From positions 1-37,587 of the IMG/VR virus record IMGVR_UViG_3300050120_000149: a stretch of 37,587 bases of DNA, one strand, 5' to 3'. The notes under the pieces are model-generated. The model saw only the letters and a list, made by a program, of their open reading frames with translations, searched no databases and was not told the DNA's origin. The stretch comes from a virus. Numbering within the stretch: position 1 is the first letter of the stretch; each line of letters starts with the position of its first letter. Shown here piece by piece: positions 8,787-29,506 of the stretch. Made by a program: the position numbers and the translations under genes.

Positions 8787-8787
8787 G

Positions 8788-9322: not shown

Positions 9323-9339
9323 AACTCTTGAAATTCCAC

Positions 9340-9744: not shown

Positions 9745-9748
9745 ATTG

Positions 9749-10464: not shown

Positions 10465-10467
10465 GTC

Positions 10468-12552: not shown

Positions 12553-12746
12553 TGGAACCAAAGCTAGAAGTGATTCCGGCCTACGGATCAACGAACGCAT
12601 GTGAGTTTACCAAAGATGGAATCTGCATAGGCCACCGGACGCACATCTCAGAGCATTCGATGATTGGCACCTCGCAGACCATGACTCGTGAAGAGGCCAA
12701 GAGACGTTTCCCCGAGTTGGCCGCAAGGATTGACGCGCTGCCCTAA
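12549..12746 (+). CDS. Hypothetical early protein, 65 residues
   Basis: The product starts MMEPKLEVIPAYGSTNACEF and ends RRFPELAARIDALP. The first half is polar with two Cys and two His (KDGICIGHRTH), the second half helical. The ATG overlaps the previous stop (ATGATG). It is followed by a structured non-coding leader. Function is unknown. Confidence 0.5.
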   Translation: MMEPKLEVIPAYGSTNACEFTKDGICIGHRTHISEHSMIGTSQTMTREEAKRRFPELAARIDALP

Positions 12747-12763
12747 TGGGGAGTAGACTGTCT

Positions 12764-12856
12764 GTGGACGACGGGGGGCACCCCGCCATCCGGTACTGTA
12801 GCGGCTCTGGCCGCGATAGCTACAGGTCGCACCAAGAGCCGCGCAGAGTCGTCCAC
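12764..12856 (+). ncRNA. Structured leader RNA with pseudoknot potential
   Basis: No convincing ORF lies between 12747 and 12900. A 9-bp closing stem GTGGACGAC (12764-12772) / GTCGTCCAC (12848-12856) encloses a GGGG/CCCC hairpin (12773-12784). It also encloses two crossing helices: CTGTA (12796-12800) with TACAG (12821-12825), and GCGGCTCT (12801-12808) with AGAGCCGC (12835-12842). These form an H-type pseudoknot or two exclusive folds. A third option, GCGG (12801-12804) with CCGC (12811-12814), competes. A terminator-like hairpin follows at once. A cis-regulatory leader or small RNA is inferred. Confidence 0.6.
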
Positions 12857-12864
12857 CCATTTGG

Positions 12865-12900
12865 ACCCCTGTTCGGTAACACCGAATGGGGGTTTCTCTT
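12865..12900 (+). terminator. Terminator/attenuator hairpin abutting the next start codon
   Basis: TTCGGT (12872-12877) and ACCGAA (12881-12886) pair with loop AAC, extended by CCCC (12866-12869) with GGGG (12888-12891) around a small internal loop. The U-rich TTTCTCTT ends right before the ATG at 12901. The 3' arm also holds the only SD-like G-run for that gene, so the hairpin could both terminate transcription and hide the ribosome site. Confidence 0.6.
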
Positions 12901-13056
12901 ATGCACTTACGTCCTCAAGATGTTCTCAGTCTTACGGTCAACGTGGCCTGTAAGTTCTGTCCTTGGGTCGGCGTCTATCCCGTTGGCGAGCACGAAGAGG
13001 CTGCCAAAGACGGGGCAAAGCACATCTTCAGCGCGCACCCAGAATTGGCGAAGTGA
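12901..13056 (+). CDS. C2H2-like zinc miniprotein under leader control
   Basis: A 51-residue product: MHLRPQDVLSLTVNVACKFC, then PWVGVYPVGEHEEAAKDGAK, HIFSAHPELAK. C-x2-C is followed by His residues at suitable spacing for a classical zinc finger (C-K-F-C ... H-I-F-S-A-H). It begins immediately after a terminator-like hairpin and has no obvious promoter of its own, so it should depend on readthrough or release of the hairpin. The stop overlaps the next GTG start (GTGA). Confidence 0.6.
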   Translation: MHLRPQDVLSLTVNVACKFCPWVGVYPVGEHEEAAKDGAKHIFSAHPELAK

Positions 13057-13400
13057 GCGGTAACGCCAAGCTCGGCGCGGACGTTACGTCCTTCTTCGCC
13101 GGAGTCGTCAAACTCGGAGCGCTTGCCCGTGCCCAAGGCCATTTCGACGCGGAGGGCGACCCGATCTGGTCTATCCCGATCTGGGAGGCGTTCTGCCGTG
13201 GTGCTCGTGCCTACAAGCACGCAGGTTCGTTCTACGGCCCGGGGCTCGTCAATACGGTCCATGAGGTCGAGGAGATGATCGCGGACCAATACGACGCTGC
13301 GTCCATTCATGCGGTGCTTAAGGGCTTTGAGTACGAACGTGAGGCCAAGAACCGCCGGCGCGATCCGCACCAGATTCATTACGCGGAGCTTGGCTCTTGA
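13053..13400 (+). CDS. Hypothetical phage protein (DUF5664-like appearance)
   Basis: A 115-residue product starting MSGNAKLGADVTSFFAGVVK at a GTG in a GTGA overlap. Helical, with PIWSIPIWEAFCRGARAYKH, GLVNTVHEVEEMIADQYDAA and a basic end YEREAKNRRRDPHQ. The alternation of acidic helices with a D-x-x-D-like pattern recalls small dATP/dGTP-pyrophosphohydrolase-like phage proteins, but I cannot confirm this. It is coupled to the next gene through TTGA. Confidence 0.55.
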   Translation: MSGNAKLGADVTSFFAGVVKLGALARAQGHFDAEGDPIWSIPIWEAFCRGARAYKHAGSFYGPGLVNTVHEVEEMIADQYDAASIHAVLKGFEYEREAKNRRRDPHQIHYAELGS

Positions 13401-13534
13401 TTCTTCACACGAAACGAACAGCTCGGAGGCGTTGTCCTCAATGCGGCTCGTGGCTCGTGACGGATGGCGCGGGCCTCAAATGCCCGCAGTCCGGTTGCTC
13501 GTATCGTCGGGGGCCAAAGCCTATCGCGAAGTAA
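13397..13534 (+). CDS. Zinc-ribbon miniprotein, TTG start
   Basis: A 45-residue product starting MILHTKRTARRRCPQCGSWL and continuing LKCPQSGCSYRRG. CPxCG ... C-P-x-x-G-C is a typical treble-clef/zinc-ribbon pair. The TTG start overlaps the previous stop (TTGA). The same frame stays open for another 70 codons after its TAA. Probable nucleic-acid binding; the specific role is unknown. Confidence 0.6.
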   Translation: MILHTKRTARRRCPQCGSWLVTDGAGLKCPQSGCSYRRGPKPIAK

Positions 13535-13747
13535 CGCCACGAGGCGAAGCAGCGTAAAAGGGCGGCGCTCTACGGAGCGGCTCGTCCGGTTAGCAGCCGG
13601 GCGGACTTTGAAGCTACGCAACCGCCATGTCTGAAGCATTGGCGGATCAATACAAAACGCGGTCGTCTTAACCCAACGACTGCGGCACGACGATGCTACG
13701 CGTTGACCTGGTTTTACTTCATGGGGCCTTTGTTCCAGCGAGCGTAG
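13535..13747 (+). other. Open frame without start codon, in frame after the zinc-ribbon stop
   Basis: After the TAA at 13532-13534 the same frame runs 70 codons to TAG at 13745-13747. It reads RHEAKQRKRAALYGAARPVS, later ATQPPCLKHWRINTKRG and RRCYALTWFYFMGPLFQRA. There is no ATG, GTG or TTG near its beginning. It could be readthrough of the TAA, a remnant of a longer gene broken by a nonsense change, or chance. An opposing frame (13852 to 13379) is also open, so coding cannot be settled by eye. Confidence 0.3.
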
Positions 13748-13748
13748 C

Positions 13749-13850
13749 GAACCATACGGATACCACACTGAGGTGCCGGGGTGTCGCGCTCCCGATTCAT
13801 CGTAGCGAAAGCTATGGGGGTCGGGGGCGCACTCTGTCCAGCCGTATTCC
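13749..13850. ncRNA. Candidate structured RNA with GAAA-capped hairpin
   Basis: No start codon with a plausible gene is seen here. A 10-bp stem GCGCTCCCGA (13786-13795) / TCGGGGGCGC (13821-13830), with one G-U pair, encloses CGTAGC-GAAA-GCTATG (13801-13816), a GNRA-capped hairpin. ATACGG (13754-13759) pairs with CCGTAT (13842-13847) as a possible outer closing stem. The strand is uncertain; the plus strand is favoured because the G-U pairs work there. Confidence 0.35.
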
Positions 13851-13884
13851 ATCCTGGGATTAGGGGTATCTCGGACAAACGAAG

Positions 13885-13910
13885 AACCCCGCTCCTTGAA
13901 AAGCGGGGTT
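13885..13910. terminator. Bidirectional terminator between convergent early units
   Basis: A perfect 9-bp stem AACCCCGCT (13885-13893) / AGCGGGGTT (13902-13910) with an 8-base loop. It lies between the end of the plus early unit and the stop at 13918 of the minus unit, where both transcripts converge. The flanking T-runs are short, but the position and stem support termination in both directions. Confidence 0.75.
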
Positions 13911-13917
13911 CAATCGG

Positions 13918-14121
13918 TTAGGGCTTTGGCTTACGCCGGTATTCGTTCGCTCGCTTACCACAGGCTTCACACGTTACTCTTGGTACGCCTAGAGGCTCAT
14001 CAGGGGCGATTATTGGCTTACCACACGAGAGGCAACGCCCTTCCTCGCGGCGCTTGGCGGTTTCGCGCTCGCGTTTGGTGAGCGGTTCGTCAGGCATTAT
14101 GTGCGCGCCATTCCGTCTCAT
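13918..14121 (-). CDS. Zinc-ribbon protein with basic N-terminal helix
   Basis: A 67-residue product. A charged helix (LTKRERETAKRREEG) precedes CLSCGKPIIAPDEPLG and TCEACGKRANEYRRKPKP, a four-Cys zinc ribbon with basic tail, typical of small DNA- or RNA-binding proteins. The start at 14121 (MRRNGAH) or 14097 (MPDEPLTK) cannot be separated; the latter resembles common family starts. It is the second gene of the RHH-controlled minus unit and ends at the bidirectional terminator. Confidence 0.65.
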   Translation of the reverse strand: MRRNGAHIMPDEPLTKRERETAKRREEGRCLSCGKPIIAPDEPLGVPRVTCEACGKRANEYRRKPKP

Positions 14122-14130
14122 ACGGTTCCA

Positions 14131-14373
14131 TCAAACGGCCCTCACTTCCAGCACGACCGGCTTGAGTTCGTGGAAATACGAGCGCCCCTGTCCGTTCGAT
14201 ACCGTCTTAGCGCGCTCGGTGACGATCCGCTCGATTGAGCCGATAACGCCCGTGTTGCGTTCGAGGCTCGCAAGCGATTCTTTGGCGCGCTTCAGCGTTT
14301 TGCAGGGCGCGCCGTCAACCCACGTTCCCGGGGCAACGAGGCGAAACGTCACAACCTTGACGCGATCTTCCAT
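14131..14373 (-). CDS. Hypothetical early protein behind the second operator
   Basis: An 80-residue product starting MEDRVKVVTFRLVAPGTWVD. Beta-strands at both ends (VKVVTFRLV; SYFHELKPVVLEVRAV) flank helices (LKRAKESLASLERN), an alpha/beta mini-fold. AAAGGA lies 8 bases before the ATG, a good ribosome site. A promoter overlapped by RHH-type operator sequence lies 50-78 bases upstream, so it should be co-regulated with the repressor. Function is unknown. Confidence 0.6.
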   Translation of the reverse strand: MEDRVKVVTFRLVAPGTWVDGAPCKTLKRAKESLASLERNTGVIGSIERIVTERAKTVSNGQGRSYFHELKPVVLEVRAV

Positions 14374-14418
14374 GCCTGAGGTCCTTTCTCAGTCGGCCGG
14401 CAAGTCGCCGTTCCGTGA

Positions 14419-14451
14419 GCACATTGTCTCACACCATCATACAATGTGCAA
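14419..14451 (-). promoter_or_regulatory. Minus-strand promoter overlapped by RHH-type operator
   Basis: Minus strand -35 TTGCAC (plus 14446-14451), exactly 17 bases, -10 GACAAT (plus 14423-14428). A perfect inverted repeat GCACATTGT (14419-14427) / ACAATGTGC (14441-14449) covers both elements. CATTGTCTCACACC (14422-14435) is the reverse complement of the word at 11913-11926 by the RHH gene. Repressor control of both units is the simplest reading. Confidence 0.65.
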
Positions 14452-14499
14452 GCGAATCAAGCTCAACTCAGGCAACCTTTACAATACACACACGCAAAG

Positions 14500-14568
14500 G
14501 TTTCATGTGGAACACTCGCTAACGCTCGCGCTCGTAAGAGGGACGGGTGAACTGTTTCACGTGAAACC
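14500..14568. promoter_or_regulatory. Chromosomal-type parS site plus degenerate second copy
   Basis: TGTTTCACGTGAAACC at 14553-14568 matches the bacterial parS consensus TGTTTCACGTGAAACA at 15 of 16 positions, with a perfect 14-bp palindrome at 14554-14567. GTTTCATGTGGAAC at 14500-14513 matches 12 of 14 and lies 54 bp away. parS is the ParB/Spo0J CTPase loading site. No ParB-like gene is seen in this genome, so host ParB would be the ligand. Function is inferred from the motif only. Confidence 0.7.
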
Positions 14569-14793
14569 GAGCAACGCACACCGCATAACGCATACCGTGA
14601 ACACGATACACCGCAATGCGTCATGCTGCTAGCTGCGAACGTTGCTGCTCGCTGCAGGCGCTTACACCATACCTTATGGGGAGGCCCTTTACCCTTACCG
14701 CTCTGCTGCGTAGGGACCAAACTCAACAAAATTATTATTTGGAGGAGGTACTCACCTCAGGTCACTCCCCAATTATAACATTTTTGTAAATAG

Positions 14794-14840
14794 CCACTTT
14801 TGTAGAAATACCAGTCCACTTGTAGTGGAGCGGTCCACTT
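14794..14840. repeat. Three CCACTT repeats, iteron-like spacing
   Basis: CCACTT starts at 14794, 14816 and 14835, about two helical turns apart, each followed by T-rich bases and GTAG/GTGG. The middle copy forms the inverted repeat CCACTTGTAGTGG. The block lies in AT-rich sequence just before the late operon. An initiator, activator or late-promoter regulator could bind here; no cognate protein is identified. Confidence 0.45.
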
Positions 14841-14904: not shown

Positions 14905-15042
14905 GTGATCGTTAAGGGTTTTTACATCAAGTACATTGGTGATGTGTGCCGTCCGTGTTTGCGGCGTTCGCCGGTGCTGCAATGGGATACGATTCTGAAG
15001 GCTCGTCTTAGCTGCGTGCTGTGCGGGGGCCGGGTTGGATGA
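14905..15042 (+). CDS. Zinc-ribbon miniprotein at head of late operon
   Basis: A 45-residue product with a GTG start: MIVKGFYIKYIGDVCRPCLR, then WDTILKARLSCVLCGGRVG. VCRPC and SCVLC form a four-Cys zinc ribbon. The stop overlaps the aminotransferase start (ATGA), so it is translated with the sugar cassette. The start is uncertain because AGGGG lies very close to the GTG. As first gene after the control island it could be a late regulator; that is inference. Confidence 0.5.
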   Translation: MIVKGFYIKYIGDVCRPCLRRSPVLQWDTILKARLSCVLCGGRVG

Positions 15043-16244
15043 GGGTCGAGGTTGCTCAGCAGATCACGGATCACGTTGAGGCCGACTATCTCAGCCAAGT
15101 CGTAGCCTCTGGACGCTACGCTGCCGGTCCCTGGACGGCTCGCTTCGAGCGGGAGTTTGCTGACTGGTGGGGCGTACGCTCGTGCCTCTTGGTCAACAGC
15201 GGCAGCAGCGCTAACCTCTTAGCCATCTCGGCCTTGATGTCGCCCGCGCTGGGTGATCGTGCGCTGAAGCCGGGTGACGAGGTGATCACAGCGGCGTGTG
15301 GGTTCCCGACGACGGTGAACCCGATTGTTCAGAACGGCTTAGTGCCAGTGTTTATCGACTGTGAACTGGAGACGTACAATGCCGATCTCAGCCAACTGGA
15401 AGCGGCTCTCGGCCCTCGCTCACGAGCGGTTATTCTTGCCCATACCTTGGGAAACCCATACGATGCCGGACGGCTCAAAAGCTTCTGTGATGAGCATGAT
15501 CTCTTCTTCATCGAAGATTGTTGTGACGCGGTTGGTGCGACCTGGGCAGGCCAAAGAGTCGGTACGTTCGGAGATTTATCTACAGTCTCGTTCTACCCCG
15601 CCCACCACATGAGCATGGGCGAAGGCGGCGCTGTCCTCAGCGGCACCCGCTTTCGCAAGATCGTGGAAAGCTACCGCGACTGGGGCCGAGACTGCTGGTG
15701 CGCTCCCGGCTGCGACGATACGTGCGGCAAGCGGCTGGGGTGGCAGTTGGGGACGCTGCCCGAGGGGTACGATCACAAATACACCTACGCGCATCGGGGC
15801 TACAACCTCAAGGCCACGGAGTTCTCCGCGGCGCTGGGATGCGCGCAGCTGCGGAAGGTCGATGGGTTCATTGAGAAGCGGCAAGAGAACGCTGGGCATT
15901 TACGGATGTGGATCGACAAGCGAGTGCCGTGGCTAAAAGTTCCGGCGTGGTCAAACTGGGCGAGTTGGTTCGGTCTCCCTCTCCGAGTCATGCCCGGGGC
16001 TCCCATGACCCGTGACGCCCTCTGCGCCTATCTGTGGTCTCATGGTATCGCGACCCGCCTGCTCTTTGCCGGGAACATCACCCGGCACCCGGCGTATGCC
16101 GATGTAAACTACCGCGTGGTGGGAGAGTTACGTAACTCGGACGAGGTGATGAACTCGGTCTTTTGGATTGGCGTTCATCCCGGCCTCGGGGTGGCCGAGT
16201 TGCAGTACGTCGCAGAAACCTTGGCCGGATGCGCGTCCTCGTAA
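15039..16244 (+). CDS. rfbH: RfbH/E1-type NDP-4-keto-6-deoxyhexose 3-dehydrase
   Basis: A 401-residue DegT/DnrJ-family PLP-type enzyme. The usual cofactor Lys site reads SFYPAHHMSMGEGG, with His at 189-190, the hallmark of the dehydrase E1 (DdhC/RfbH), which uses PMP. The [2Fe-2S] cysteines are seen at DCWCAPGCDDTCG (Cys219, 221, 225, 229), then GYDHKYTYAHRGYNLKAT as in E1. E1 removes the C3 hydroxyl of CDP-4-keto-6-deoxyglucose on the way to 3,6-dideoxysugars, with electrons from a reductase (E3) not found here. The ATG at 15039 (ATGA) is preferred to the GTG at 15021. Confidence 0.9.
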   Translation: MRVEVAQQITDHVEADYLSQVVASGRYAAGPWTARFEREFADWWGVRSCLLVNSGSSANLLAISALMSPALGDRALKPGDEVITAACGFPTTVNPIVQNGLVPVFIDCELETYNADLSQLEAALGPRSRAVILAHTLGNPYDAGRLKSFCDEHDLFFIEDCCDAVGATWAGQRVGTFGDLSTVSFYPAHHMSMGEGGAVLSGTRFRKIVESYRDWGRDCWCAPGCDDTCGKRLGWQLGTLPEGYDHKYTYAHRGYNLKATEFSAALGCAQLRKVDGFIEKRQENAGHLRMWIDKRVPWLKVPAWSNWASWFGLPLRVMPGAPMTRDALCAYLWSHGIATRLLFAGNITRHPAYADVNYRVVGELRNSDEVMNSVFWIGVHPGLGVAELQYVAETLAGCASS

Positions 16245-16915
16245 CGGGAGCCACGGGCTTTCTCGGCCCGTACCTCGTTGCGGCCCTCAAGGCCGCTAAC
16301 AACGAGGTCGTTGGCCTTGGCCGCGGTCAGTCACCAGAAGGCAACTTCGATGCACTCGTTCACGCCTCGCTAGAGCCGATGGCTCACTATCTCGCACATG
16401 TGCAAGGACCGTCCGTTCTCTTGTCCTCGGGAGCCGTCGTTACACACGGCAGCGGCTACCTGGACGGCTACGCCGACACCAAGCGTATTCAAGAAGTCGA
16501 GGCATTCTCCGAGGGCATGCAAATCGCACGCATCTTCTCAGTCCTGGGACCTGGGATCGAGAAGCACGAACACATGGCAGCATCCCAGTTCCTCGCACAA
16601 GCGAAGGCTGGTGGCCCGGTCGTCGTTAAGGCCGGAGCCATTCGCTCGTATCTCTACCCCACCGATGTCGCATCAGCCGTCCTAACCATCATGGAACTCG
16701 GCGACGGCCAGCCGTACGACGTTGGTGGCGAAGAACCGATGAACGTCGCGGACCTTGGTGAGCGGATCGGGCGAGCGGCTAAGGTCGCGGTGTACCGGGC
16801 AGAGATCATTGGCGCGATTGATACCTACCTCCCGGACCTTACGCGCCTCAAGGCGCTCGGTTGGAAGCAAACGATCAGCACAGAAGAAGCCATTCGAAGA
16901 ACGCTCGATGCCTGA
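16229..16915 (+). CDS. Compact NAD(P)-dependent SDR, epimerase/reductase type
   Basis: A 228-residue Rossmann enzyme overlapping the dehydrase gene by 16 bases. MRVLVTGATGFLGPYLV holds the G-x-x-G-x-x-G nucleotide motif (7-13). Ser67 and Y81-x3-K85 (YADTK) are the catalytic residues, and RSYLYPTDVASAVL plus YDVGGEEPMNVADL are typical of sugar-nucleotide epimerases and reductases. It is ~70-80 residues shorter than usual; the region between the first beta-alpha unit and the active site is reduced. It would reduce or epimerise the keto-sugar made by the dehydrase. Confidence 0.82.
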   Translation: MRVLVTGATGFLGPYLVAALKAANNEVVGLGRGQSPEGNFDALVHASLEPMAHYLAHVQGPSVLLSSGAVVTHGSGYLDGYADTKRIQEVEAFSEGMQIARIFSVLGPGIEKHEHMAASQFLAQAKAGGPVVVKAGAIRSYLYPTDVASAVLTIMELGDGQPYDVGGEEPMNVADLGERIGRAAKVAVYRAEIIGAIDTYLPDLTRLKALGWKQTISTEEAIRRTLDA

Positions 16916-17486
16916 GCCCGAGTACGTCACCTTCCGCATGGCGCGCACCGCGAACGACGGCACCATCACCAGCCGCGGGGAACGTGTTGCCGGCGTGCTG
17001 TTCACCGTCCGGCGAGCGAAGTGGGTCCGAGGCTACCTCCAGGCAATTGCCGAAGGGCTCACCGGGAAAGCCGCGGCGTTAGCTGGTGGCCGCTACGGTG
17101 GTATTGGAGGCTCGACGCACTTGCCCGATTTGGTCGTGACCCGCAAGATGGAGACGTTCCTTGCGAACCCGGACGTGCAGCAAGCCATTCGGAGCGTGTA
17201 CGAGGAAGTGGGGTTCTCGCTCGAAGATGCGGTGAAGCTCCATCTGCGGCACATCAAAGGCGACATCTCACACGAAGAAGTCACGAAAGACGGAGACGTC
17301 GTGGAAGTCAAACACGCCCCGAACTACCCTGCCCTCAAGGACTGGCTCGCTGTAGCAACGCCGAGAGAGCCGAAGCGCGTGAATGTCCTCACGGCTCGGG
17401 TGGGCATCGCACGAGAGTCGCGCACGGATGGCTCGCCACCGGCAATGGCCGCACGAGCAATTGGAGAAATCATCGATGCGACCTGA
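16908..17486 (+). CDS. Probable small terminase subunit
   Basis: A 192-residue product starting MPEPEYVTFRMARTANDGTI. The segment WVRGYLQAIAEGLTGKAAAL, then VVTRKMETFLANPDVQQAIR, resembles the DNA-recognition helices of small terminases (sites x-A-A-x-x-A-G, then L-x-x-P-x-V-x-x-A-I). The C-terminus is basic and Ala-rich. It lies two to three genes before the large terminase, with sugar genes on both sides. A replication- or packaging-related DNA-binding protein is the alternative. It overlaps the SDR stop by 8 bases. Confidence 0.5.
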   Translation: MPEPEYVTFRMARTANDGTITSRGERVAGVLFTVRRAKWVRGYLQAIAEGLTGKAAALAGGRYGGIGGSTHLPDLVVTRKMETFLANPDVQQAIRSVYEEVGFSLEDAVKLHLRHIKGDISHEEVTKDGDVVEVKHAPNYPALKDWLAVATPREPKRVNVLTARVGIARESRTDGSPPAMAARAIGEIIDAT

Positions 17487-17817
17487 CGAACTCTTTGAAT
17501 CAATCGGTCGTGGCATCGTCAAACAACTCTTAGCGCCTGAGGCCGCTGCGAATGATCCCGCAGCGATGCTCCCGGCTAAGGCCGAGCCTTCGGGGGTCGT
17601 CGTTCCCCCGGAGGCATCGGTTATTCCAGGCGAGGTTCCGCAGCCGTCATTCGATCAAGTGGACGAGCCGCTGCCCGGATTTGAGGGCATTCCGCGCGCC
17701 ACGCTCAAGCAAATGCAAGACGCAATGGAGAAGATCACTCGCGGTCAGGGACCGCCGCCTGGAATGTACGATAAGGACGACCCAAACAACCCCGTCAACT
17801 CGGTACCGCTAAGTTGA
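17476..17817 (+). CDS. Pro-rich acidic hypothetical protein
   Basis: A 113-residue product starting MRPDELFESIGRGIVKQLLA. It is acidic and Pro-rich in the middle (PPEASVIPGEVPQPSFDQVD), with a short helix (LKQMQDAMEKITRG) and a low-complexity end (PPPGMYDKDDPNNP), so it is probably largely disordered. It overlaps the terminase-like gene by 11 bases and the ThDP gene start by 4. A virion or packaging accessory role fits; no family is recognised. Confidence 0.5.
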   Translation: MRPDELFESIGRGIVKQLLAPEAAANDPAAMLPAKAEPSGVVVPPEASVIPGEVPQPSFDQVDEPLPGFEGIPRATLKQMQDAMEKITRGQGPPPGMYDKDDPNNPVNSVPLS

Positions 17818-18332
17818 CGGTCGCCGATGAAGTCGCCGCGTATCTCGCGGAGCGAGGAGTTACATGTGTCTTCGGGATTATCGGGGCGGGTAACATGTCA
17901 CTCTTTGACGCCATCGATCGGCTGGGCCGGACCACAGTTGTATGTTGCCACCACGAACAAGCCGCGGTCATGGCTGCCGCAGCATACTATCGCGTCAGCG
18001 GAGTGGTTACGGCGGCGCTTGTTACAACTGGAGCAGGAAGCAGTAACGCGCTCACAGGTGTCCTCTCAGCCTACATGGATTCAATACCATTGGTGGTACT
18101 CGCCGGCAATGAGGCTTCTACTCGGCGAACGATTGGACGGGCGCGCGGTGTTCAAGGCTACGACTCGGTTGCCGTAGCCGCACCGATGACGAAACGGGCG
18201 CACCGTGTTGAATTCGGACACGGAAGGATGTCGGCGTGCTTGTTCGATAGTTTTCTGACGGCGGAGTGTGGTCGCCCGGGCCCGATCTGGATAGAGATTC
18301 CGATGGATGTGGCGGCAAGTGAAGCAGCTTAG
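17814..18332 (+). CDS. ThDP-dependent enzyme, N-terminal (PYR) domain
   Basis: 172 residues: MTVADEVAAYLAERGVTCVF, then GIIGAGNMSLFDAI, and CCHHEQAAVMAAAAYYRVSG with the catalytic Glu48 that activates ThDP. TTGAGSSNALTGVLSAYMDS and GPIWIEIPMDV complete an acetolactate-synthase-type PYR domain. It ends at the domain border; the rest lies in the next gene in another frame with 26 bases of overlap. Near an E1-type dehydrase, the closest known role is YerE, which adds a two-carbon branch to CDP-4-keto-3,6-dideoxyglucose (yersiniose route). The start is TTG inside the previous stop. Confidence 0.78.
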   Translation: MTVADEVAAYLAERGVTCVFGIIGAGNMSLFDAIDRLGRTTVVCCHHEQAAVMAAAAYYRVSGVVTAALVTTGAGSSNALTGVLSAYMDSIPLVVLAGNEASTRRTIGRARGVQGYDSVAVAAPMTKRAHRVEFGHGRMSACLFDSFLTAECGRPGPIWIEIPMDVAASEAA

Positions 18333-19440
18333 AGACGCGCAACGCCCATTGCTCTTGCTGGGCCACGGCATCCGGCTTGCTGGCGCGGTCGATCTCATCG
18401 ACCCGTTGCTCGACCATCTCGGCATCCCCGCTATCGTTAGCTGGGCCGGGAAGGATATGAGCGATCATCCGCTCATTTACGGTTCGGCAGGCGTCTACGG
18501 CGGCCGTGCGGCGAATCACATCGTGCAGCAGGCCGACTTCATTCTCTGCATCGGTACGCGCCTTGCGATTCCGCAAACGGGCTACGACATCACGAAGTTC
18601 GCGCCCGATGCAAAGATCGTTGTCGTGGACATCGACCCGGAAGAAGCGCACAAGTTCATGGAACACGAACGGTTCACAGGGATTGTCGCGGATGCGAAAG
18701 AGTTCATGCTTGGACTCATGGAGCCGTACCCCATCGACGGCTTCAACCACGATTGGATGGGTTACATCTACGATACGGTGGAGCGGTTCCCCGTCATCGA
18801 GGAGTGCCACGCGGACCCGCCCGGCTTCATCAGCCCGTACCTGTTCCTCAAGCGTCTCGAACAACACCTCAAACCCGATGCCGTGATCGTAACCGATAGC
18901 GGTGGAGCCTTACTCTGTTCGCATCAAGTCATGACGCTGAAGCCGCCGCAGCGGCTCATAACGACCACCGGACTTGGCGAAATGGGCTTCGGGTTGCCTG
19001 GAGCAATCGGTGCATCGTTTGCACGGAACAAAGGCGAGGTAATCTGCCTAAACACGGACGGCAGCATGATGCTGAACCTGCAAGAGCTACAGACGATAGC
19101 GCATCACAACCTGCCGATTAAGATCATCGTGTTCTCGAACGACGGATACGGGATGATTCGCCACAGTCAGAAGGCGATGGGGCTCGCCAAGACGGGGAGT
19201 GACCGCGAAGGCGGCGTGTCGTGCCCGGACTTCCGTGCGATTGGAAATGCGTTTGGCATTCCGTCGATGTTGACGCTTGAGGGAGCCGCAGACTGTCTTC
19301 CGTGGCTGATGCGGTGTAAGGGGCCCGCGTTGCTTGAAGTTCACTGTTCGCCCGAACAGCAGTATCTTCCGAAGCTCATGGGCTCACCCGGATTTTCGCC
19401 GGCACTTGATGAGATTAGTCCGCTCTTGGTCCGCGCATGA
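18307..19440 (+). CDS. ThDP-dependent enzyme, central and PP domains
   Basis: 377 residues. The central domain begins QLRDAQRPLLLLGHGIRLAG and reads IVVVDIDPEEAHKF. The PP domain has TTGLGEMGFGLPGAIGAS, then LNTDGSMMLNLQELQTIAHH and IVFSNDGYGM; the Mg/ThDP motif is T-D-G (250-252) with N278-D279 instead of G-D-G and N-N. Together with the preceding gene it makes one YerE/acetolactate-synthase-like enzyme of normal total length. Whether it is a natural two-subunit form, a frameshifted gene or a sequencing error is open. A weak AGAG precedes the ATG. Confidence 0.78.
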   Translation: MWRQVKQLRDAQRPLLLLGHGIRLAGAVDLIDPLLDHLGIPAIVSWAGKDMSDHPLIYGSAGVYGGRAANHIVQQADFILCIGTRLAIPQTGYDITKFAPDAKIVVVDIDPEEAHKFMEHERFTGIVADAKEFMLGLMEPYPIDGFNHDWMGYIYDTVERFPVIEECHADPPGFISPYLFLKRLEQHLKPDAVIVTDSGGALLCSHQVMTLKPPQRLITTTGLGEMGFGLPGAIGASFARNKGEVICLNTDGSMMLNLQELQTIAHHNLPIKIIVFSNDGYGMIRHSQKAMGLAKTGSDREGGVSCPDFRAIGNAFGIPSMLTLEGAADCLPWLMRCKGPALLEVHCSPEQQYLPKLMGSPGFSPALDEISPLLVRA

Positions 19441-21548
19441 TTAATCGTGCGAGCGTTCGTGACCAAATCGCCCCAAGAGCGCACGCAATCCTCGCGATGG
19501 TCGGCATTACCGTACCAGATGGCTACCAGCACAGTCTCTTGCCGAACTGGCGTGGCATCCCGTTTGAAACGTGGGTCGATCTTCACGACAACAAGTACGA
19601 ACTTTATACCGAACTGCTCACCATCTGCGAGTCGGACTTCCCGACGTGGTGCGCGCTCTTAGCCCGGATCGTTGGTAAGGGCGGTGGCGGTACCCATCCC
19701 TACATCTTCAACAACTCGCAGCGGTACCTCTGGAACCGCTTCTCCGACCGTATTCAGAACAAGCGCGTGCTGAAGATCATCATTCTCAAAGCGCGCCAAA
19801 TCGGTATCACCACGTTCATGTCCGCATGGCAATACTGGCAGCTATGGCGGCAGGCGAACATTCAAACGCTTATGCTCGGCAATCAAGAGAAGTTGACTGG
19901 GCGCATCACGCAGATGTTCCGTATCTTTCACGATGAGCTACCTGACGTTGGCGATATGAAGCCACGGCTGCGGCAAGACACGAAATTAAAAACCGCCCGC
20001 GTACCAAAGGGCGAAATCTACATGACGTTTCGAGGAGAACTTTCATGGAACAGTTGGGGAATTACGGGTTCCGCTCGCAACGTCGATCAACGTGGGTTTC
20101 AAGGGACGCACTTCTCGGGCTCCGAGGCAGCATTCTGGCCGAAGCTGAACGACTTGAAGGACGCCCTCTTACCCCAGCTACCGCCGCCGTCCTCACCGAA
20201 GTATCTCGAATGCTCCGTTATTTTCGAGAGCAGCCCCCAAGGTCAGAATGAGTTCTGGCAACTCTACATGTTGGGGAAGGACCCGAAGTCTGAGTGGGAG
20301 TCGGTGTTCATCCCCTGGTTCATGCAGGACGACGAGTATTCGATGCTCGTGCCCGACAACTGGAAGATGGACGCGGACGACCGAGACATACAAGCCAAGC
20401 TGACCAAAGAGCGCAAGAAGTACGATGGCCAGCCGATTACCAGAGGGCAGATGTATTGGCGTTACTTCACTCTGCTCAATGAGTATGATGGCAACGTCGA
20501 TGGGTTCGATGCCGAGTACGCCAGCGATGACGTAACGTGCTTCATGATGTCGGATAACATGCTCTTTCAGCGAGACATGAAGTATCTGCACTCATGCGTT
20601 ACCGCCGCGGAAGAAGAAGCACCAAGCCTGCTTGCTGACGCTGGGTTCAAGTCCGAGAAGCAAGCCGTGGGTGAGTTCTCGTTCGAGCCGTTGGAAAACC
20701 CGTTTAAGGGCATTGGCTGGATGAAGGCGCAGAAGCCGAAGTTCAAATACGAGAAGCGCGGAAATGTTACGATTTGGGAGCCGCCGCAAGACGGCCACAT
20801 CTATCTTCTCGGTGCGGACGGCTCGGGTGGCGAGAACAACCGCGATGGTGCGTGCGCGCATGTAGCGTGCGTGAACTGCGGGCGGCAAGCGGCTGAGTTT
20901 TGGGATAACACTGTGGGCCCTGAGGAGTTCACCGATAACTTTTATCACCTCGCGCTGATGTATAACGAAGCCCTCTGCAACCCGGAAATCAACTATCTCG
21001 GCACGATCATTCTCAAGCGGCTCATGACCGGCTGGGGCTACGGCAATGTCGCGCGTGAGGAGAAGTGGGATGAAATCTCGCTCAAGAAAAACAAGTACGG
21101 CTTCAGCACGACTCGGCAAACGAAGCCGGTACTCATTTCCTCCGGTGTCTCGATGATTAAAGAGCGGCATTACAAGATCAGCGGACGAGACATGCTAAGT
21201 GAACTCTCGACCTTTCAGTTCGACGGCCTCAATAGCTTCGGCGATGAGATGTTCTCCGCGCAGCATCATAAACGAGACGATCGTGTGATTGCGTATTGCC
21301 TAGCGATGTACGCCGTACGGCAGTCGCCGAAGCTGTTCTCGACGATTGCAACGCATCAGCACGCCATGCCGAGTGCGGTGGAGTTGCGGATTAACGCCAG
21401 TCCGATTATGCCCGCTTCATCGAAGTTGCCGAAAGACTTCTTGGATCAGGTTCCTGAGGCGATGAAGAATATCTTCGATCCTGGTGGCGTTGAGAGCCAG
21501 GGGATTCCGGCAAACCCTATGCGTGGATACTTGACGGGGTGGCGCTAA
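19437..21548 (+). CDS. Large terminase subunit (TerL)
   Basis: A 703-residue packaging motor. The ATPase Walker A-like loop is IIILKARQIGITTFMSAWQY (Lys118-Thr125), with FNNSQRYLWNRFSDR before it as the adenine/substrate region. The C-terminal nuclease is suggested by YLLGADGSGGENNRDGACAH (Asp-rich metal site). It cuts concatemers and pumps DNA through the portal. It begins in an ATGA overlap with the ThDP gene. Length is usual for podoviral and related large terminases. Confidence 0.88.
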   Translation: MINRASVRDQIAPRAHAILAMVGITVPDGYQHSLLPNWRGIPFETWVDLHDNKYELYTELLTICESDFPTWCALLARIVGKGGGGTHPYIFNNSQRYLWNRFSDRIQNKRVLKIIILKARQIGITTFMSAWQYWQLWRQANIQTLMLGNQEKLTGRITQMFRIFHDELPDVGDMKPRLRQDTKLKTARVPKGEIYMTFRGELSWNSWGITGSARNVDQRGFQGTHFSGSEAAFWPKLNDLKDALLPQLPPPSSPKYLECSVIFESSPQGQNEFWQLYMLGKDPKSEWESVFIPWFMQDDEYSMLVPDNWKMDADDRDIQAKLTKERKKYDGQPITRGQMYWRYFTLLNEYDGNVDGFDAEYASDDVTCFMMSDNMLFQRDMKYLHSCVTAAEEEAPSLLADAGFKSEKQAVGEFSFEPLENPFKGIGWMKAQKPKFKYEKRGNVTIWEPPQDGHIYLLGADGSGGENNRDGACAHVACVNCGRQAAEFWDNTVGPEEFTDNFYHLALMYNEALCNPEINYLGTIILKRLMTGWGYGNVAREEKWDEISLKKNKYGFSTTRQTKPVLISSGVSMIKERHYKISGRDMLSELSTFQFDGLNSFGDEMFSAQHHKRDDRVIAYCLAMYAVRQSPKLFSTIATHQHAMPSAVELRINASPIMPASSKLPKDFLDQVPEAMKNIFDPGGVESQGIPANPMRGYLTGWR

Positions 21549-21693: not shown

Positions 21694-21906
21694 ATGGAAG
21701 CGATTGCGCTCCTGCTCGAAGATTTAGCCGAGAACTCCTCGACCGATATTCATTCCGAGTGGTTCTTCGCTGCTGCCGACCTTGTGCGGAAGTGCATTCT
21801 CGAACTGGTAGAAGCGAACCAGGACCAAGAGGCGATTCAGTCGTTGCTTTCGATGCAGCACGAAATAGCGATGCTGTCGCTAAAAGACGTTGTGGAGAAG
21901 TTTTGA
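21694..21906 (+). CDS. Small helical acidic protein
   Basis: A 70-residue product starting MEAIALLLEDLAENSSTDIH and ending LSLKDVVEKF. Almost fully helical, acidic and Leu-rich. The ATG at 21694, 2 bases after the preceding stop, is preferred to an upstream ATG in the same frame that would overlie the basic 47-residue gene. Its 3' end carries the strong GGAGAAG ribosome site for the next gene. Function is unknown. Confidence 0.55.
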   Translation: MEAIALLLEDLAENSSTDIHSEWFFAAADLVRKCILELVEANQDQEAIQSLLSMQHEIAMLSLKDVVEKF

Positions 21907-22502
21907 AGGTTGCGCTTTGCACCTGGGACACGGAAGACTATGCCGACCTCGCAGCCGTCTCGCAGCCCGGCAAAGAAGAATACTGCGCGAGATACAATTA
22001 CGAGTTCGTTCACGATCAGCGCAAGCTTGTGGACTCGCTTGGCTTCGAGCGCATCGAACTTGTCCACCATTTGCTCGGCACATATGATTGCGTCGTCTCT
22101 ATCGATACGGATGCAATGGTAATGAACCACACCCTACGCGCCGACCGATTCCCGAACACCGGGATTACGATTGCCGAGGACTTGTTCGGTATTAATGACG
22201 GCGTGTTCATCGCGCACAATAATTCGCTGACCATGCAGTTCTTGACCGTGTTGCTGATGAATCGGACGTCTGGCAACTCGCAGCAAGTGTTCACGCATTT
22301 TGCCGCGATGGACTTGTATAAGCCGATCATCAATAAGGTGCCGCAGCGGGAAATCAATTCGTTTCGGAACCATTTGTATGGGCGACCGGGGTGGTTCACC
22401 GGGAATTACGTTCCGGGGGACTGGGTTTGCCAATGGCCCGGTATTTCCAAAGCGGATCGGATTCCGCTCATGACCAAAGCACTCGATGAGGTAATACGTT
22501 GA
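21903..22502 (+). CDS. Glycosyltransferase with DxD motif (GT34-like)
   Basis: A 199-residue product with a TTG start preceded by GGAGAAG. The sequence KVALCTWDTEDYADLAAVSQ, then KEEYCARYNYEFVHD and YDCVVSIDTDAMVMN, follows the pattern of galactosyl/mannosyltransferases of the GMA12/MNN10 type: a 'Y-A-x-x-x-x-Y' region and a D-T-D metal-nucleotide site (68-70). GT-A fold expected, retaining. With the sugar genes upstream it probably transfers a hexose to a host or virion glycan. Family rank is by motif only. Confidence 0.68.
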   Translation: MKVALCTWDTEDYADLAAVSQPGKEEYCARYNYEFVHDQRKLVDSLGFERIELVHHLLGTYDCVVSIDTDAMVMNHTLRADRFPNTGITIAEDLFGINDGVFIAHNNSLTMQFLTVLLMNRTSGNSQQVFTHFAAMDLYKPIINKVPQREINSFRNHLYGRPGWFTGNYVPGDWVCQWPGISKADRIPLMTKALDEVIR

Positions 22503-23497
22503 AAGATCGTCCGGTTAAGGTCATCTCGTGCATCTTCGGCGGCATGGGGGACCACCTGCTCCTCTCGACGCTTCCGCGCCGGTTTGATGAGTATCGCGGT
22601 GAGGACGCGCCCGAAGGCTACGACGTGTATATGCACGACGGCGTGCTAGCGCCGTTCCGTAACTCGGAAATCAAAGCCCTGATAATGCGCAACCCGCACA
22701 TCAAAGGCTTCAGCACGCGCCCGCCAAATGCGGGCCACGGCGTGTATGTCGATCTTTGGGGCCGGTTCTGCTGGGAGACACGCCTACGCAATGCCAACCC
22801 CATTGCTCTGATGGAAGAAGTGAACGGTCTCCCGCCGCCGTATTCGCATGGTCCTGAGATTTACCCCGAACTCGTCCCGGTGAATACGAATGATAGCGTT
22901 ATTCTTATCGACCCGTATAGTTCGTCGATGCCGTTTACTCAGGATTCGGTCGGTCCGTGGGTCGAGTTTTACCAGGGACACTACCCCGGCAAAACCTTTC
23001 ATGTGGTGGAGACACCTGGGTATGCGGCCATGCACCGCTCGCTCTTTGGCTTTCCGAAGATCGAAGCCAAGTCTCTCACCGAATACATCGGACTCCTCCG
23101 GTCTACTCACGCCTTCTTTGGCGTTGAGTCAGGCGGCCAGATGCTCGCTGCTGCCGTGAAGACCAGCATCCGGCCCGAACTGAAGGTTCACGCGCTATTC
23201 TCCACGCGCGGCTACAACCAGAAGTTCTATCGGCTGCACGAGTCGGTCGTGCAGACGGACGTATCCGGGTTCGTGATTCAGAACGACTTCGCGGTCGATC
23301 CTGGGCAGTTGGGATACCGTCACATCGTTGAGACGGGGAACTTCGCTGCGCAGACCAACGCAGCGGAGGCCGCCGTGCCGGAGAAGCCGCTGCAAGCGGC
23401 AGACCTCATTGCCGTGCCGAACTCGCCGCAGCACATTCAGAAGTACGCAGACCCAATTGGTGATGGGTTCCCAATGCCAAGTGAGGCATCGATGTAA
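22499..23497 (+). CDS. Glycosyltransferase GT9/heptosyltransferase-like (putative)
   Basis: A 332-residue product with a TTG start in TTGA. The start VKVISCIFGGMGDHLLLSTL has the G-G-x-G-D-x-L-x-x-S-T-L signature of ADP-heptose:LPS heptosyltransferases. A second domain has HAFFGVESGGQMLAAAVKTS, similar to the sugar-nucleotide binding loop of GT-B enzymes. The C-terminal ~60 residues are unusual and Pro-rich. It forms a unit with the preceding transferase. An LPS-modifying or phage-glycan role is inferred. Confidence 0.6.
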   Translation: MKDRPVKVISCIFGGMGDHLLLSTLPRRFDEYRGEDAPEGYDVYMHDGVLAPFRNSEIKALIMRNPHIKGFSTRPPNAGHGVYVDLWGRFCWETRLRNANPIALMEEVNGLPPPYSHGPEIYPELVPVNTNDSVILIDPYSSSMPFTQDSVGPWVEFYQGHYPGKTFHVVETPGYAAMHRSLFGFPKIEAKSLTEYIGLLRSTHAFFGVESGGQMLAAAVKTSIRPELKVHALFSTRGYNQKFYRLHESVVQTDVSGFVIQNDFAVDPGQLGYRHIVETGNFAAQTNAAEAAVPEKPLQAADLIAVPNSPQHIQKYADPIGDGFPMPSEASM

Positions 23498-24118: not shown

Positions 24119-24666
24119 GCACAGACCCGATGCAAGCGGCTCTTGGCGCGATGCCCAAAGCGATGGAACAGGTTGCTGCGAATAATCCCGAGCCGACACC
24201 GCAGACGACGCCTCCGCCGTGGACCGCCGACACGGGTTTTCAGAAGTATATGAGCCAGTACGGCAAGGGCTGGGACCCGTTAGACAAGTCGGGCATCTCG
24301 GGCGGGTATCGGCTTTACCGGGCGTATAAGCTTGGGATCAAGCCGGACGCGGCCGGGCATTTGCCAGATCATGGTCCGAATAATGAGCCGCTGAAGACGT
24401 ATGCTGATACGAACACAGTGACCAAGGGCGTTGATAACCTCACGGGATACCAAGTGGCTCCCCCGACGTACACGGGTCCGTTAACGGAAGCGATTATCAA
24501 AAACGCTCACAAGTACGTTACGGCTGGAACGGCAACGCGGCCTGGCGGCCCGGGCGGCTGGGATGACGTGCCAACGGGCAAAAGCGCGCCCGCGAAGAAG
24601 GCACCGCAGGGCTGGAGTGTCCCGCCTGATCCAGCCTCTCAGTATGAGAAGAAGTACGGTTATTGA
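24115..24666 (+). CDS. Pro-rich hypothetical protein upstream of portal
   Basis: A 183-residue product starting MSTDPMQAALGAMPKAMEQV. Pro/Thr-rich segments (NNPEPTPQTTPPPW; GGPGGWDDVPTGKSAPAKKA) flank a folded-looking middle (FQKYMSQYGKGWDPLDKSG; YRLYRAYKLGIKP). It resembles lysozyme-like or virion-linker proteins in composition only. It overlaps the portal start by 1 base. Virion protein is a reasonable guess. Confidence 0.5.
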   Translation: MSTDPMQAALGAMPKAMEQVAANNPEPTPQTTPPPWTADTGFQKYMSQYGKGWDPLDKSGISGGYRLYRAYKLGIKPDAAGHLPDHGPNNEPLKTYADTNTVTKGVDNLTGYQVAPPTYTGPLTEAIIKNAHKYVTAGTATRPGGPGGWDDVPTGKSAPAKKAPQGWSVPPDPASQYEKKYGY

Positions 24667-26690
24667 TGAGCACTTTCGAGGAAGCCGTAGCCGAGGCGCG
24701 TCCGCGCAATGGCAAAGCCACGCCCTCGAACGGTAAGACGAAGAACGAAAAAGCCGATACCGGGATGCCGACCGATCCCGACTGGCAAGCCGCGCTCGCC
24801 GAAAAGGTCTGCTCGTATATCCGCCTCTGGGACTCCGAGGAGGACGTAAGACGCCGCTCCGACCGCGAGGGCGCAAACGCCTACTACTCGCGCCATTGGC
24901 AAATCGCCGTCCCACGCAATCGTGCGGCTATCACTTGCAACATCATCAAGCCGCTGGTGGACCACTCCATCGCGATCATGACGAAGCAGCAGCCGACCTG
25001 GGTCGTTACCCCGAGTGCCGAGGGCGACATTCAAGGCTCGCGCAACATGCGCCGGATTCTCATGCGCCAATTCGACGATGACGATATGCTCATCAAGAGC
25101 CGCCAGGCGCTCCGGTGGGCGAAGACGACTCGAACCTGTGCGGCCAAGACGTTCTGGGACCCGACGCTCAAGGGCAGCATCGGGGACGTAACGACCGACA
25201 TCATCCCACCTTTCCGATGCATTTTCGACAACCGCACACGGTTCCCGAATCGGATGCAGTTTATCGGCGACCGAGCGGTGATGACTCGCACGCGTGCGAT
25301 GCAACTCTACAAGCGGTCAGCCTCGAAGTTCATCGAGGCAGGGCAACTCACGGGCGGTACGATCTTCGGCACCGGCACGGCGGCAAGCCCGGCCGGCACG
25401 CAGTTTAGCGGTGGTCCTACCGGCGTTGACTCTGCGCCCTTTGGCGGCACGAGCGCGGGTGGCACGATTGTCAACGGCTCCCCGGTCGTCACGGCCTTTA
25501 CAGGCCGAAGTGCGACCGATGCAGGCCACGAGTTTGAAGTCGAAATTATCGAGATGTACCACAAGGACCCGACGCTGGTGCCGAAGCGCGTAGCGGTCAA
25601 AGATGAGTTCGGGCAAGAGGTCAAGCGGATTGCGCGCGATGAGGAAACGAACGCGCCGATGTTTACGCAAGACGGTGAGTTTGATGAGATTCTCGGTGAG
25701 CCGGGATTCAAGCTTGTAAAAGAGACGCAGACCGAACTCAAGGACATGCCGAAGTATCCGTTTTGGCGGCGTACCACATTACTGATGCCGGACCGTGAGG
25801 TAGTTGATGACCGAGCGTGGGACGCTCCTCAGCCGTATTCTCTGCTCTCCGATAACGAGCCGTTGGAAGGCGCGGTTGGTAAGGGTACTGCTCTGGACTG
25901 CATCGACATTCAAGCGTCCACGAATGTGTCTCTGTCCACAATGCTCGATAATTTACGCTTCTCTGCTTATCGGGCTTTCAAGGCATCAAACCAAGCGCAA
26001 ATAGAAAAAGCCAACCTCATCATCTCCCCCGGTGACGTAATCCGCACGGGTAACGATGTATCGCAGTTCGTCGCCTTAGAGTTCCAGGAGATGAGCCAGC
26101 AATGGTTTGGCTGGATCAATCTCGGCATCTCGCTCATGGAGAAAATCTTCGGCCTCGAAGGCATCATGCAGGGCAATGCTAAGGACGCGCCTCGCACGGA
26201 CTCGGCCAAAGGCTTCGACTCCCTCGCGGAAATCGGCGGCTCGCGTATCGTCGAACAAACGCAGCGGTTCTGCGAATGGCTCTCGGACATCGGCGAAAAG
26301 GTCGGCTGGTGGGCGCAACGGGAGTATACCGAAGCGCACGCGATCCAAGTCGAGAACCTCCAGGGCGAATTGACGTACGAACGAGCGAGTTCGCCGCAGT
26401 TGGCCGGCACCTACGACTACAAGGTTCGGATCGGCTCGACGCTGGCTTGGAACGATTCCGCCGTCCGCGGGCGCATCATTGAGGACTACCAGCTTGGCCT
26501 ACGCGATAAGGTCAACGTATGGCAGCAGCCTGCTATGGGCATTGATGATGTGGATGGGATCAAACAGCGGATCGAGACGGAGAACCCGATGCTCGGGCTT
26601 GCACCGCCGCCAAGAAGTCGTCAGCAAATGCCGCAACAAGGGAAGAAGGCACCCAAGCCCAAGTCCGGGGCCACCGGGCAATTCCATTAA
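24666..26690 (+). CDS. Portal protein, P22 gp1-like
   Basis: A 674-residue protein, the size of podoviral portals. N-terminal helices RRRSDREGANAYYSRHWQIA and ITCNIIKPLVDHSIAIMTKQ match the clip/wing start. KTFWDPTLKGSIGDVTTDII and FNNRTRF-like IFDNRTRFPN fit the wing region. The C-terminal region is Gln/Pro-rich (RSRQQMPQQGKK). The portal is the dodecameric channel at one vertex, the docking point for terminase and later connectors. The ATG at 24666 follows the previous gene by overlap of one base; it is followed by two small genes and a terminator. Confidence 0.82.
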   Translation: MSTFEEAVAEARPRNGKATPSNGKTKNEKADTGMPTDPDWQAALAEKVCSYIRLWDSEEDVRRRSDREGANAYYSRHWQIAVPRNRAAITCNIIKPLVDHSIAIMTKQQPTWVVTPSAEGDIQGSRNMRRILMRQFDDDDMLIKSRQALRWAKTTRTCAAKTFWDPTLKGSIGDVTTDIIPPFRCIFDNRTRFPNRMQFIGDRAVMTRTRAMQLYKRSASKFIEAGQLTGGTIFGTGTAASPAGTQFSGGPTGVDSAPFGGTSAGGTIVNGSPVVTAFTGRSATDAGHEFEVEIIEMYHKDPTLVPKRVAVKDEFGQEVKRIARDEETNAPMFTQDGEFDEILGEPGFKLVKETQTELKDMPKYPFWRRTTLLMPDREVVDDRAWDAPQPYSLLSDNEPLEGAVGKGTALDCIDIQASTNVSLSTMLDNLRFSAYRAFKASNQAQIEKANLIISPGDVIRTGNDVSQFVALEFQEMSQQWFGWINLGISLMEKIFGLEGIMQGNAKDAPRTDSAKGFDSLAEIGGSRIVEQTQRFCEWLSDIGEKVGWWAQREYTEAHAIQVENLQGELTYERASSPQLAGTYDYKVRIGSTLAWNDSAVRGRIIEDYQLGLRDKVNVWQQPAMGIDDVDGIKQRIETENPMLGLAPPPRSRQQMPQQGKKAPKPKSGATGQFH

Positions 26691-28489: not shown

Positions 28490-29506
28490 ATGCCGAACTA
28501 TTCAAGCTCGTATACCTTCTCAAACCCGCTTCAAGTGATGACGCGGGAAGCCGTTATCTCCGATGTGATCTTCGACCAGAACTTCACGAAGTCTGGTAAG
28601 TTCATGCAGTACATGCTCCAAAAGGGCATGGTCGATGACAAAAAGGGCGGCGCGGCGCTGACCTGGCAAAACAACTTCGGCTCTTCGCCGAATACCGTTG
28701 CCTTCGACGGCGACGACAACTTGCCGATCGCGTCGATGACCAACAACCTTCAGCGCGCAGCACTCCCTTGGCGCGCCTACGCGGACGCCTTGGTGCTCGC
28801 GGTGCTGGACGTCGTGGACAATGAGGACTCCCCGGAGGCTCTTGCGAGCCTTGTCGAAGGCCAGTTGGACATTACGAAGATGTCGCTGGTTGATCGGCTC
28901 GCGGGCGACATCCTGACTAACACGCCGTCGATCAACCCGAAGGGCCTGGACGGTATCGCCGAGGCCATCGACTCGGGCACGGTCGCGCCGACGTACGCCG
29001 GTATCGGTCGCACGCAGTTCGGTACGCGCTGGCAGTCCACCGTGAACTACGCGGTGCCGTCTACGACGAGCATCCTGAACACGATTCACATGAACGACCT
29101 CACGGCGTCGATTGATAACCAGCGCCCGGATGCGTACTTCTGCAACACGCTCATGTTCGGGCAAATCATCGAGTCGCTGTTTGCGCAAGACGCCTATATC
29201 CAGCCGGAGATGGCGCGCGCAGCCGGTGGCAACGATCTGATTTTCAACGGTAACCCGCTCTACATCGACAACCACATTCCGACGGGCGTGGCGAGTCCGA
29301 ACGGAACGGCCGGCACCTACGGTCAGTTCCTCGGGATCAACTCGACGTATCTCCGGTACATCATCAATCCGAAGATGCGGTTCTCGGTCACCGACTGGAT
29401 CGCAGCGCAGAACAGCGGCACGGTGTTCGTGCGTATCTTCTTCCGCGGCAACCTCGTGGTTCCGAAACCGGCCGCCCACTTCACTTTCTGGTACCAAGGG
29501 ACCTAA
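28490..29506 (+). CDS. Major capsid protein
   Basis: A 338-residue protein preceded by ATAGGAG. N-terminal MTREAVISDVIFDQNFTKSG, then LTWQNNFGSSPNTVAFDGDD, KMSLVDRLAGDILTNTPSIN, and C-terminal GTVFVRIFFRGNLVVPKPAA with the F-x-x-R-G beta-hinge typical of HK97-fold coat proteins in podoviruses. It forms the icosahedral shell. Its place between scaffold and small head proteins supports this. No exceptional insertion is seen. Confidence 0.8.
   Translation: MPNYSSSYTFSNPLQVMTREAVISDVIFDQNFTKSGKFMQYMLQKGMVDDKKGGAALTWQNNFGSSPNTVAFDGDDNLPIASMTNNLQRAALPWRAYADALVLAVLDVVDNEDSPEALASLVEGQLDITKMSLVDRLAGDILTNTPSINPKGLDGIAEAIDSGTVAPTYAGIGRTQFGTRWQSTVNYAVPSTTSILNTIHMNDLTASIDNQRPDAYFCNTLMFGQIIESLFAQDAYIQPEMARAAGGNDLIFNGNPLYIDNHIPTGVASPNGTAGTYGQFLGINSTYLRYIINPKMRFSVTDWIAAQNSGTVFVRIFFRGNLVVPKPAAHFTFWYQGT

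Follow-up and report, generated by a model that had tools for sequence, protein, structure and literature searches.

A putative sugar-branching gene cassette with a split YerE-like carboligase, interleaved with the packaging genes of an environmental phage

Results

The stretch of DNA analysed here (the window; IMG/VR record IMGVR_UViG_3300050120_000149) is a linear virus record of 37,587 bases, in which a putative sugar-branching cassette is interleaved with packaging genes. The record is probably a fragment, so 37 kb is a lower bound for the genome size. The left side of the window carries endolysin and tail-fibre genes and the right side portal, major head and tail genes, and a continuous chain of overlapping genes runs from an RfbH homologue through the large terminase gene, TerL (15039-21548). 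In order, and all on the plus strand, these encode an RfbH/DdhC-type nucleoside diphosphate (NDP)-4-keto-6-deoxyhexose 3-dehydrase of 401 amino acids (aa; 15039..16244), a short extended short-chain dehydrogenase/reductase (SDR) of 228 aa with TGATGFLG and YADTK motifs (16229..16915), a candidate small terminase of 192 aa (16908..17486), a small proline-rich protein (17476..17817), the two parts of a putative YerE-like thiamine diphosphate (ThDP) carboligase (17814..18332 and 18307..19440), and the probable large terminase of 703 aa (19437..21548), which overlaps the carboligase gene by 4 nt.

The dehydrase scores 566 bits against the NCBIfam RfbH model NF011936, exceeding the curated cut-off of 423, and 459 bits against a solved E1 enzyme (PDB 3bcx). 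At the pyridoxal phosphate (PLP) site its SFYPAHH motif aligns with the histidine of 3bcx, whereas 3bb8 has lysine. The cysteines predicted to ligate the [2Fe-2S] cluster are arranged as C161-X57-C219-X1-C221-X7-C229, which we take to be the spacing of E1. The original prediction, made from the DNA letters, of an RfbH/E1-type dehydrase with histidine in place of the PLP lysine and four Fe-S cysteines is thus borne out in each element.

The ThDP enzyme is encoded by two open reading frames (ORFs) in different frames that overlap by 26 nt. Part 1 is the N-terminal (PYR) ThDP domain with the catalytic glutamate (HHEQ; PF02776, 102 bits) and aligns with residues 9-176 of JanthE (PDB 8rph; PMC12188165), a ketone carboligase that has been characterised; part 2 carries the central (PF00205) and C-terminal (PP; PF02775) domains and aligns with residues 208-593. 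When joined, the pair scores 513 bits to JanthE and 227 bits to the best acetolactate synthase (AHAS), with 51% identity to JanthE over the whole length and all three domains, and its NCBIfam matches are mostly to AHAS models, with all AHAS scores far under their cut-offs. The GDG motif of most ThDP enzymes is replaced by TDG both here and in the closest relative (L021), and by CDG in JanthE, and the catalytic glutamate and the DG are retained in all split viral copies where the scan could read them. JanthE is a YerE-like lyase, a subclass described as unique among known decarboxylases in joining 2-keto acids to isolated ketones (PMC12247030). Assignment of the pair as a YerE-like carboligase rather than an acetolactate synthase is well supported by these comparisons, and we give the latter identity low weight because JanthE is far closer. 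A ThDP enzyme of the YerE type had been anticipated as one gene; the type stands, and the single gene has become two.

The SDR could be placed only to its fold family (PF01370, 53.9 bits), and it is also the sole match in the window, at 15 bits, to the DdhB model. Neither DdhA (TIGR02623) nor DdhB (TIGR02622) was found in the window, although the record may be incomplete. A motif search picked up candidates for a clustered DdhD-like gene at 11 of the 80 bacterial loci but at none of the viral ones; the pattern is crude and was not used as evidence.

A scan of viral contigs for RfbH found 62 environmental viral contigs. The ThDP enzyme is encoded near RfbH in about 40 of these, and a relative of the window SDR can be recognised in about 20; in viral RfbH/ThDP loci these SDR relatives share 27-33% identity with it. 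A second scan, for the ThDP enzyme, used an alignment with L021 and JanthE; neither TerL nor the second ThDP part gave matches when used as the query against viral contigs. The gene order in L021 is RfbH, ThDP N-terminal part, ThDP middle and C-terminal part, SDR, a glycosyltransferase-like gene, a 100-aa gene, TerL and portal. Phage structural genes (PHROGs) surround other relatives as well: TerL and portal in L028, portal and a head protein in L026, a head protein in L033, a scaffold in L037 and a minor head protein in L053. Portal genes on one side and head genes on the other flank the cassette in L026, L037, L038, L042, L053 and L056. With the arrangement in L021, these positions indicate that location within or beside the packaging and head operon recurs across different phages. 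Bacterial homologues are usually found in dideoxy-sugar clusters with RfbH, RfbF and DdhB, an RfbH-like gene being present in 62 of the 80 bacterial loci.

Such a pathway had been described as unusual in a 37 kb phage. Unusual it is among named phages, a DNA search of which returned only a short match to an unannotated 2.6 kb record, but it recurs in environmental viruses and, as noted, 37 kb is a lower bound. A literature search, limited in its coverage, turned up nothing published on phage-encoded YerE-like enzymes. Some very short phages-collection records (OR851175, OR845371 and similar), named as Salmonella, Escherichia or Listeria phages, have RfbH-like or acetolactate synthase-like genes and look like host DNA. 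Radical SAM/SPASM-type genes (cluster c10) also recur near the cassette, in L016, L026, L027, L033, L035, L037 and L059, with the domain confirmed by Pfam in L026 only.

Division of the ThDP gene at domain linkers is common in the viral loci. In those from the RfbH scan the enzyme is fused in seven, cut after the N-terminal domain in about 16 (including the window), cut before the C-terminal domain in 15, and divided three ways in L052 and L053; the ThDP scan added four cases cut after the N-terminal domain (L153, L154, L156 and L157) and about 11 fused genes. A few viral copies end at contig ends. L052 (7404-9012) and L053 (15938-17546) have one gene per domain, the last junction being a 4-nt overlap. 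In L028 (9154-10190) an N-domain gene is followed, with a 4-nt overlap, by a short C-domain gene and there is no middle domain, and in L062 (11139-12664) the gene is in several gapped fragments and has likely decayed or been badly sequenced. None of the 80 bacterial loci has a linker-cut gene; contig ends truncate five, and in L070 an interruption falls within the N domain.

A ThDP tree with 81 rows puts the window in a viral split clade of five (support 99), nested in a clade of 31 rows that includes 20 bacterial rows, among them the JanthE-like ones (support 100). At least four changes are required to explain the split state on this tree, and constraining all split rows to one clade is rejected (p=4.7e-5). 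Because the tree was built with a 'quick' method and has some long branches the exact number of splits is uncertain; the case against a single origin is more secure. In relative pairs that are sufficiently close, both parts have ratios of nonsynonymous to synonymous polymorphism (pN/pS) of 0.03-0.37, indicating purifying selection; the window itself is too diverged for inclusion. A GIY-YIG/NUMOD3 homing endonuclease gene lies exactly between the N-terminal part and the remainder in L027 and L055, which suggests endonuclease insertion as a route by which a split can arise. There is no endonuclease between the parts in the window, where they overlap.

In three loci (L013, L014 and L032) the slot between RfbH and SDR that holds the YerE-like enzyme in relatives is occupied by a two-gene transketolase, called by PF00456 and PF02779 on the L013 pair and by similarity to L013 in the other two. 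The DNA of L032 and L012 is 97% identical until RfbH ends at position 11199, has nothing in common for 1.7-1.8 kb, and is 87% identical again from the SDR; the unshared stretch holds the split transketolase in L032 and the YerE-like enzyme in L012. Similarly, the RfbH genes of L014 and L010 are 93% identical, the former having a split transketolase and the latter a YerE-like enzyme cut before its C-terminal domain. Since two unrelated carboligases occupy the same slot, the step between dehydrase and reductase is predicted to be a carboligation on the sugar, and the exchange lends this step independent support.

The packaging genes within and after the cassette are less well defined. The candidate small terminase and the proline-rich gene were taken from the ORF list, with starts read from the sequence at 16908 (ATG; an 8-nt overlap with the SDR gene) and 17476; the proline-rich gene overlaps both its neighbours. 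Neither product has a family match in profile searches, and the candidate small terminase is predicted to be helical in a single-sequence AlphaFold model that is uninformative (predicted local distance difference test, pLDDT, 34.5). The large terminase has low PHROG scores (phrog_38407, phrog_24361 and phrog_2) and about 24% identity to the terminases of other phages by tblastn. Of the proposal that a small terminase and a proline-rich gene sit inside the cassette with the large terminase following, the large terminase is thus weakly upheld and the small terminase stays a candidate.

Downstream of TerL are, in order, a 107-aa gene, a GT34-like gene (21903..22502, plus strand) and a gene without a family match (22499..23497, plus strand), the last two having been put forward as glycosyltransferases. 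The first is a marginal match (PF05637, 26.7 bits, just over the cut-off of 23); tblastn places a relative in L146, immediately upstream of RfbH and of a gene similar to JanthE. The second is predicted with a pLDDT of 32, again from a single sequence and uninformative. Small GT34-like genes similar in kind to 21903..22502 are also seen near the major head protein gene in L036, L042, L045 and others (cluster c37). Further downstream on the plus strand are the portal (24663..26690, phrog_156) and major head protein (28490..29506, phrog_9953) genes. Minus-strand, perhaps early, genes scanned at 5124-14800 have almost no family matches, apart from a weak single-strand-binding match at 9940-10464.

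Discussion

A plausible explanation for the cassette is that the phage encodes only the last steps of a pathway for which the host supplies the 4-keto-6-deoxy nucleotide sugar and the electrons, as DdhA, DdhB and DdhD are all missing from the window, unless their genes lie beyond the record. The phage would then probably finish a host-made cytidine diphosphate (CDP)-4-keto-6-deoxy sugar. RfbH, with electrons from a host reductase, would remove the 3-hydroxyl from NDP(CDP)-4-keto-6-deoxyglucose; the two ThDP proteins would assemble into one YerE/JanthE-like carboligase, with pyruvate or a longer 2-keto acid as donor of the acyl unit that it adds at the C4 ketone; and the SDR, which we propose to be a reductase of the side-chain ketone, would reduce the new ketone, giving a C4-branched 3,6-dideoxy sugar. 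One or both of the putative glycosyltransferases after TerL would then attach this sugar to its acceptor, for which a virion protein is the likeliest candidate. We regard the pathway up to the branched sugar as probable, and put the complete scheme, with a virion acceptor as its likeliest destination, at slightly better than even. The prediction of a 3,6-dideoxy or branched sugar is well supported by RfbH scoring over its cut-off and by the ThDP pair being far closer to JanthE than to AHAS, and comparisons with NCBIfam, Pfam and PDB entries place both in the expected families. The proposed arrangement as in yersiniose synthesis (DdhC, YerF, YerE) fares less evenly: the DdhC and YerE types and a short SDR are there, but the SDR is not tied to YerF and the pathway is incomplete.

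Several observations weigh against this scheme. The pathway as predicted depends on the host, DdhA, DdhB and DdhD being absent, and a DdhD-type reductase (PF00175) was found in none of 48 virus records. The SDR is too divergent to be called YerF, and 22499..23497 has no family match in profile searches, leaving one of the two glycosyltransferases unsupported. Four viruses with a ThDP enzyme related to that of the window (L153, L154, L156 and L157, three of which are on the ThDP tree, in the clade of the window) have heptose-type or other genes and no detected RfbH, so the acceptor sugar in this ThDP subclade may not always be dideoxy. Near these split JanthE-like genes we observed a PfkB/HldA-like kinase gene upstream in L153, L156 and L157, an SIS (GmhA-like) gene in L154 and L157, and a radical SAM gene in L153, L154 and L157, the L157 set lying directly 3' of a TerL-like gene.

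The destination of the sugar is less certain than its synthesis. The original prediction had named host lipopolysaccharide (LPS), the virion and phage DNA. Given its overlap with the terminase genes, the cassette would be made late, together with virion proteins. No GtrA or Wzx flippase is present in any of 37 cassette-bearing records, and a thymidylate synthase/hydroxymethylase-type gene is lacking in the window and found in only one of the 37, which weakens the LPS and DNA readings respectively. Together with the terminase overlap, these absences make a cytoplasmic late acceptor, such as a virion protein, our first guess, and we give a virion protein a little under an even chance.

Host glycans could alternatively be the acceptor, via host flippases. 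The sugar would then be added late to the host LPS or capsule, blocking re-adsorption or superinfection in the manner of serotype conversion. The sugars that YerE-like enzymes are known to branch have been described in LPS and similar surface glycans (PMC12247030), rfbH of environmental phages has been reported, in Sargassum viruses, as an O-antigen gene (PMC11295528), and swapping of the branching enzyme looks like antigen diversification. Set against this are the lack of flippase genes and the overlap with the candidate small terminase and TerL, which, with the head-operon location in relatives, is a late, virion-linked position; we consider host-surface modification possible but doubtful.

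Attachment of the sugar to phage DNA, evading restriction, is improbable. Some phages do glycosylate hydroxymethylated bases, and the cassette adjoins packaging genes, but it is found in head operons and not with replication genes, and hydroxymethylase-type genes are as scarce as described above. Still less probable is a role for the ThDP pair in ordinary metabolism (acetolactate or 2-keto-acid chemistry), supporting the infected host and unconnected to RfbH: membership of the acetolactate synthase superfamily and the predominance of AHAS models among the NCBIfam matches would fit, but the AHAS scores are far under their cut-offs, JanthE is much closer, the linkage to RfbH recurs in viruses and bacteria, and the slot can be taken by a transketolase. 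The least credible reading of all is that faulty assembly or sequencing produced the split, or that the enzyme is decaying. In its favour, one metagenomic contig is the source of the window and contains one frame change, L062 has a broken look, and the N domain of bacterial L070 is interrupted. Against it, the same linker is cut in L021 and four further related viral contigs, the second linker is cut in other phages where start and stop codons overlap cleanly by 4 nt, the two parts show purifying selection in comparable pairs of relatives, and catalytic residues are kept.

Returning to the branched-sugar scheme, the relatives show that the finding extends beyond the window itself: environmental phages carry a putative sugar-branching module that is widespread, exchangeable and often split between genes. 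As a tentative extension, this may be a swappable module in which the dehydrase and reductase genes stay fixed while the split, heteromeric YerE-like carboligase between them is replaced through recombination by an unrelated carboligase, such as a split transketolase or an enzyme of another YerE lineage, such that related phages switch the branch of their virion sugar, akin to O-antigen serotype switching. The exact exchange in near-identical phages is a natural experiment on such switching. Linker splitting, seen in viruses and not in their bacterial relatives, likewise provides a natural series (fused, the two two-way cuts, three-way, and with an endonuclease present), and test material for how phage genes come apart yet stay functional. 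Should the predicted chemistry be correct, ketone-accepting ThDP carboligases, which are sought after in biocatalysis, give phages the means to produce and vary rare branched sugars.

The closest known pathway is that of yersiniose A in Yersinia pseudotuberculosis (DdhA-B-C-D, YerE, YerF), with which the window shares a DdhC-type gene, a YerE-type gene and an SDR gene in one operon; it differs in lacking DdhA, DdhB and DdhD, in having an SDR placed only to its fold family, and in the interleaving with terminase genes. JanthE of Janthinobacterium sp. HH01 resembles the window enzyme in sequence (51% identity), catalytic glutamate and non-canonical ThDP motif (CDG versus TDG), but is one chain, as are all bacterial homologues examined that no contig end truncates, except L070, whereas the window enzyme is two proteins divided at the first linker. 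The Sargassum viruses provide a precedent for RfbH encoded by environmental phages, with rfbH reported among O-antigen and biofilm genes as an auxiliary metabolic gene; no carboligase partner turned up in the part of that report considered here (PMC11295528). For miharamycin and amipurimycin, the proposed branching enzymes of keto sugars are transketolases encoded by split genes (PMC12247030), and these resemble L013, L014 and L032 in having a two-gene transketolase in a sugar-branching cluster, although the phage transketolases alternate with a YerE-like enzyme at one locus. Finally, nrdA of Aeromonas phage Aeh1 is split by insertion of the homing endonuclease gene mobE and stays functional (PMC2988022), a phage enzyme divided into separate genes as here, with an endonuclease between the parts as in L027 and L055; the window has no such endonuclease, the ThDP genes are split at two linkers, and it is a different class of enzyme that has been hit, repeatedly.

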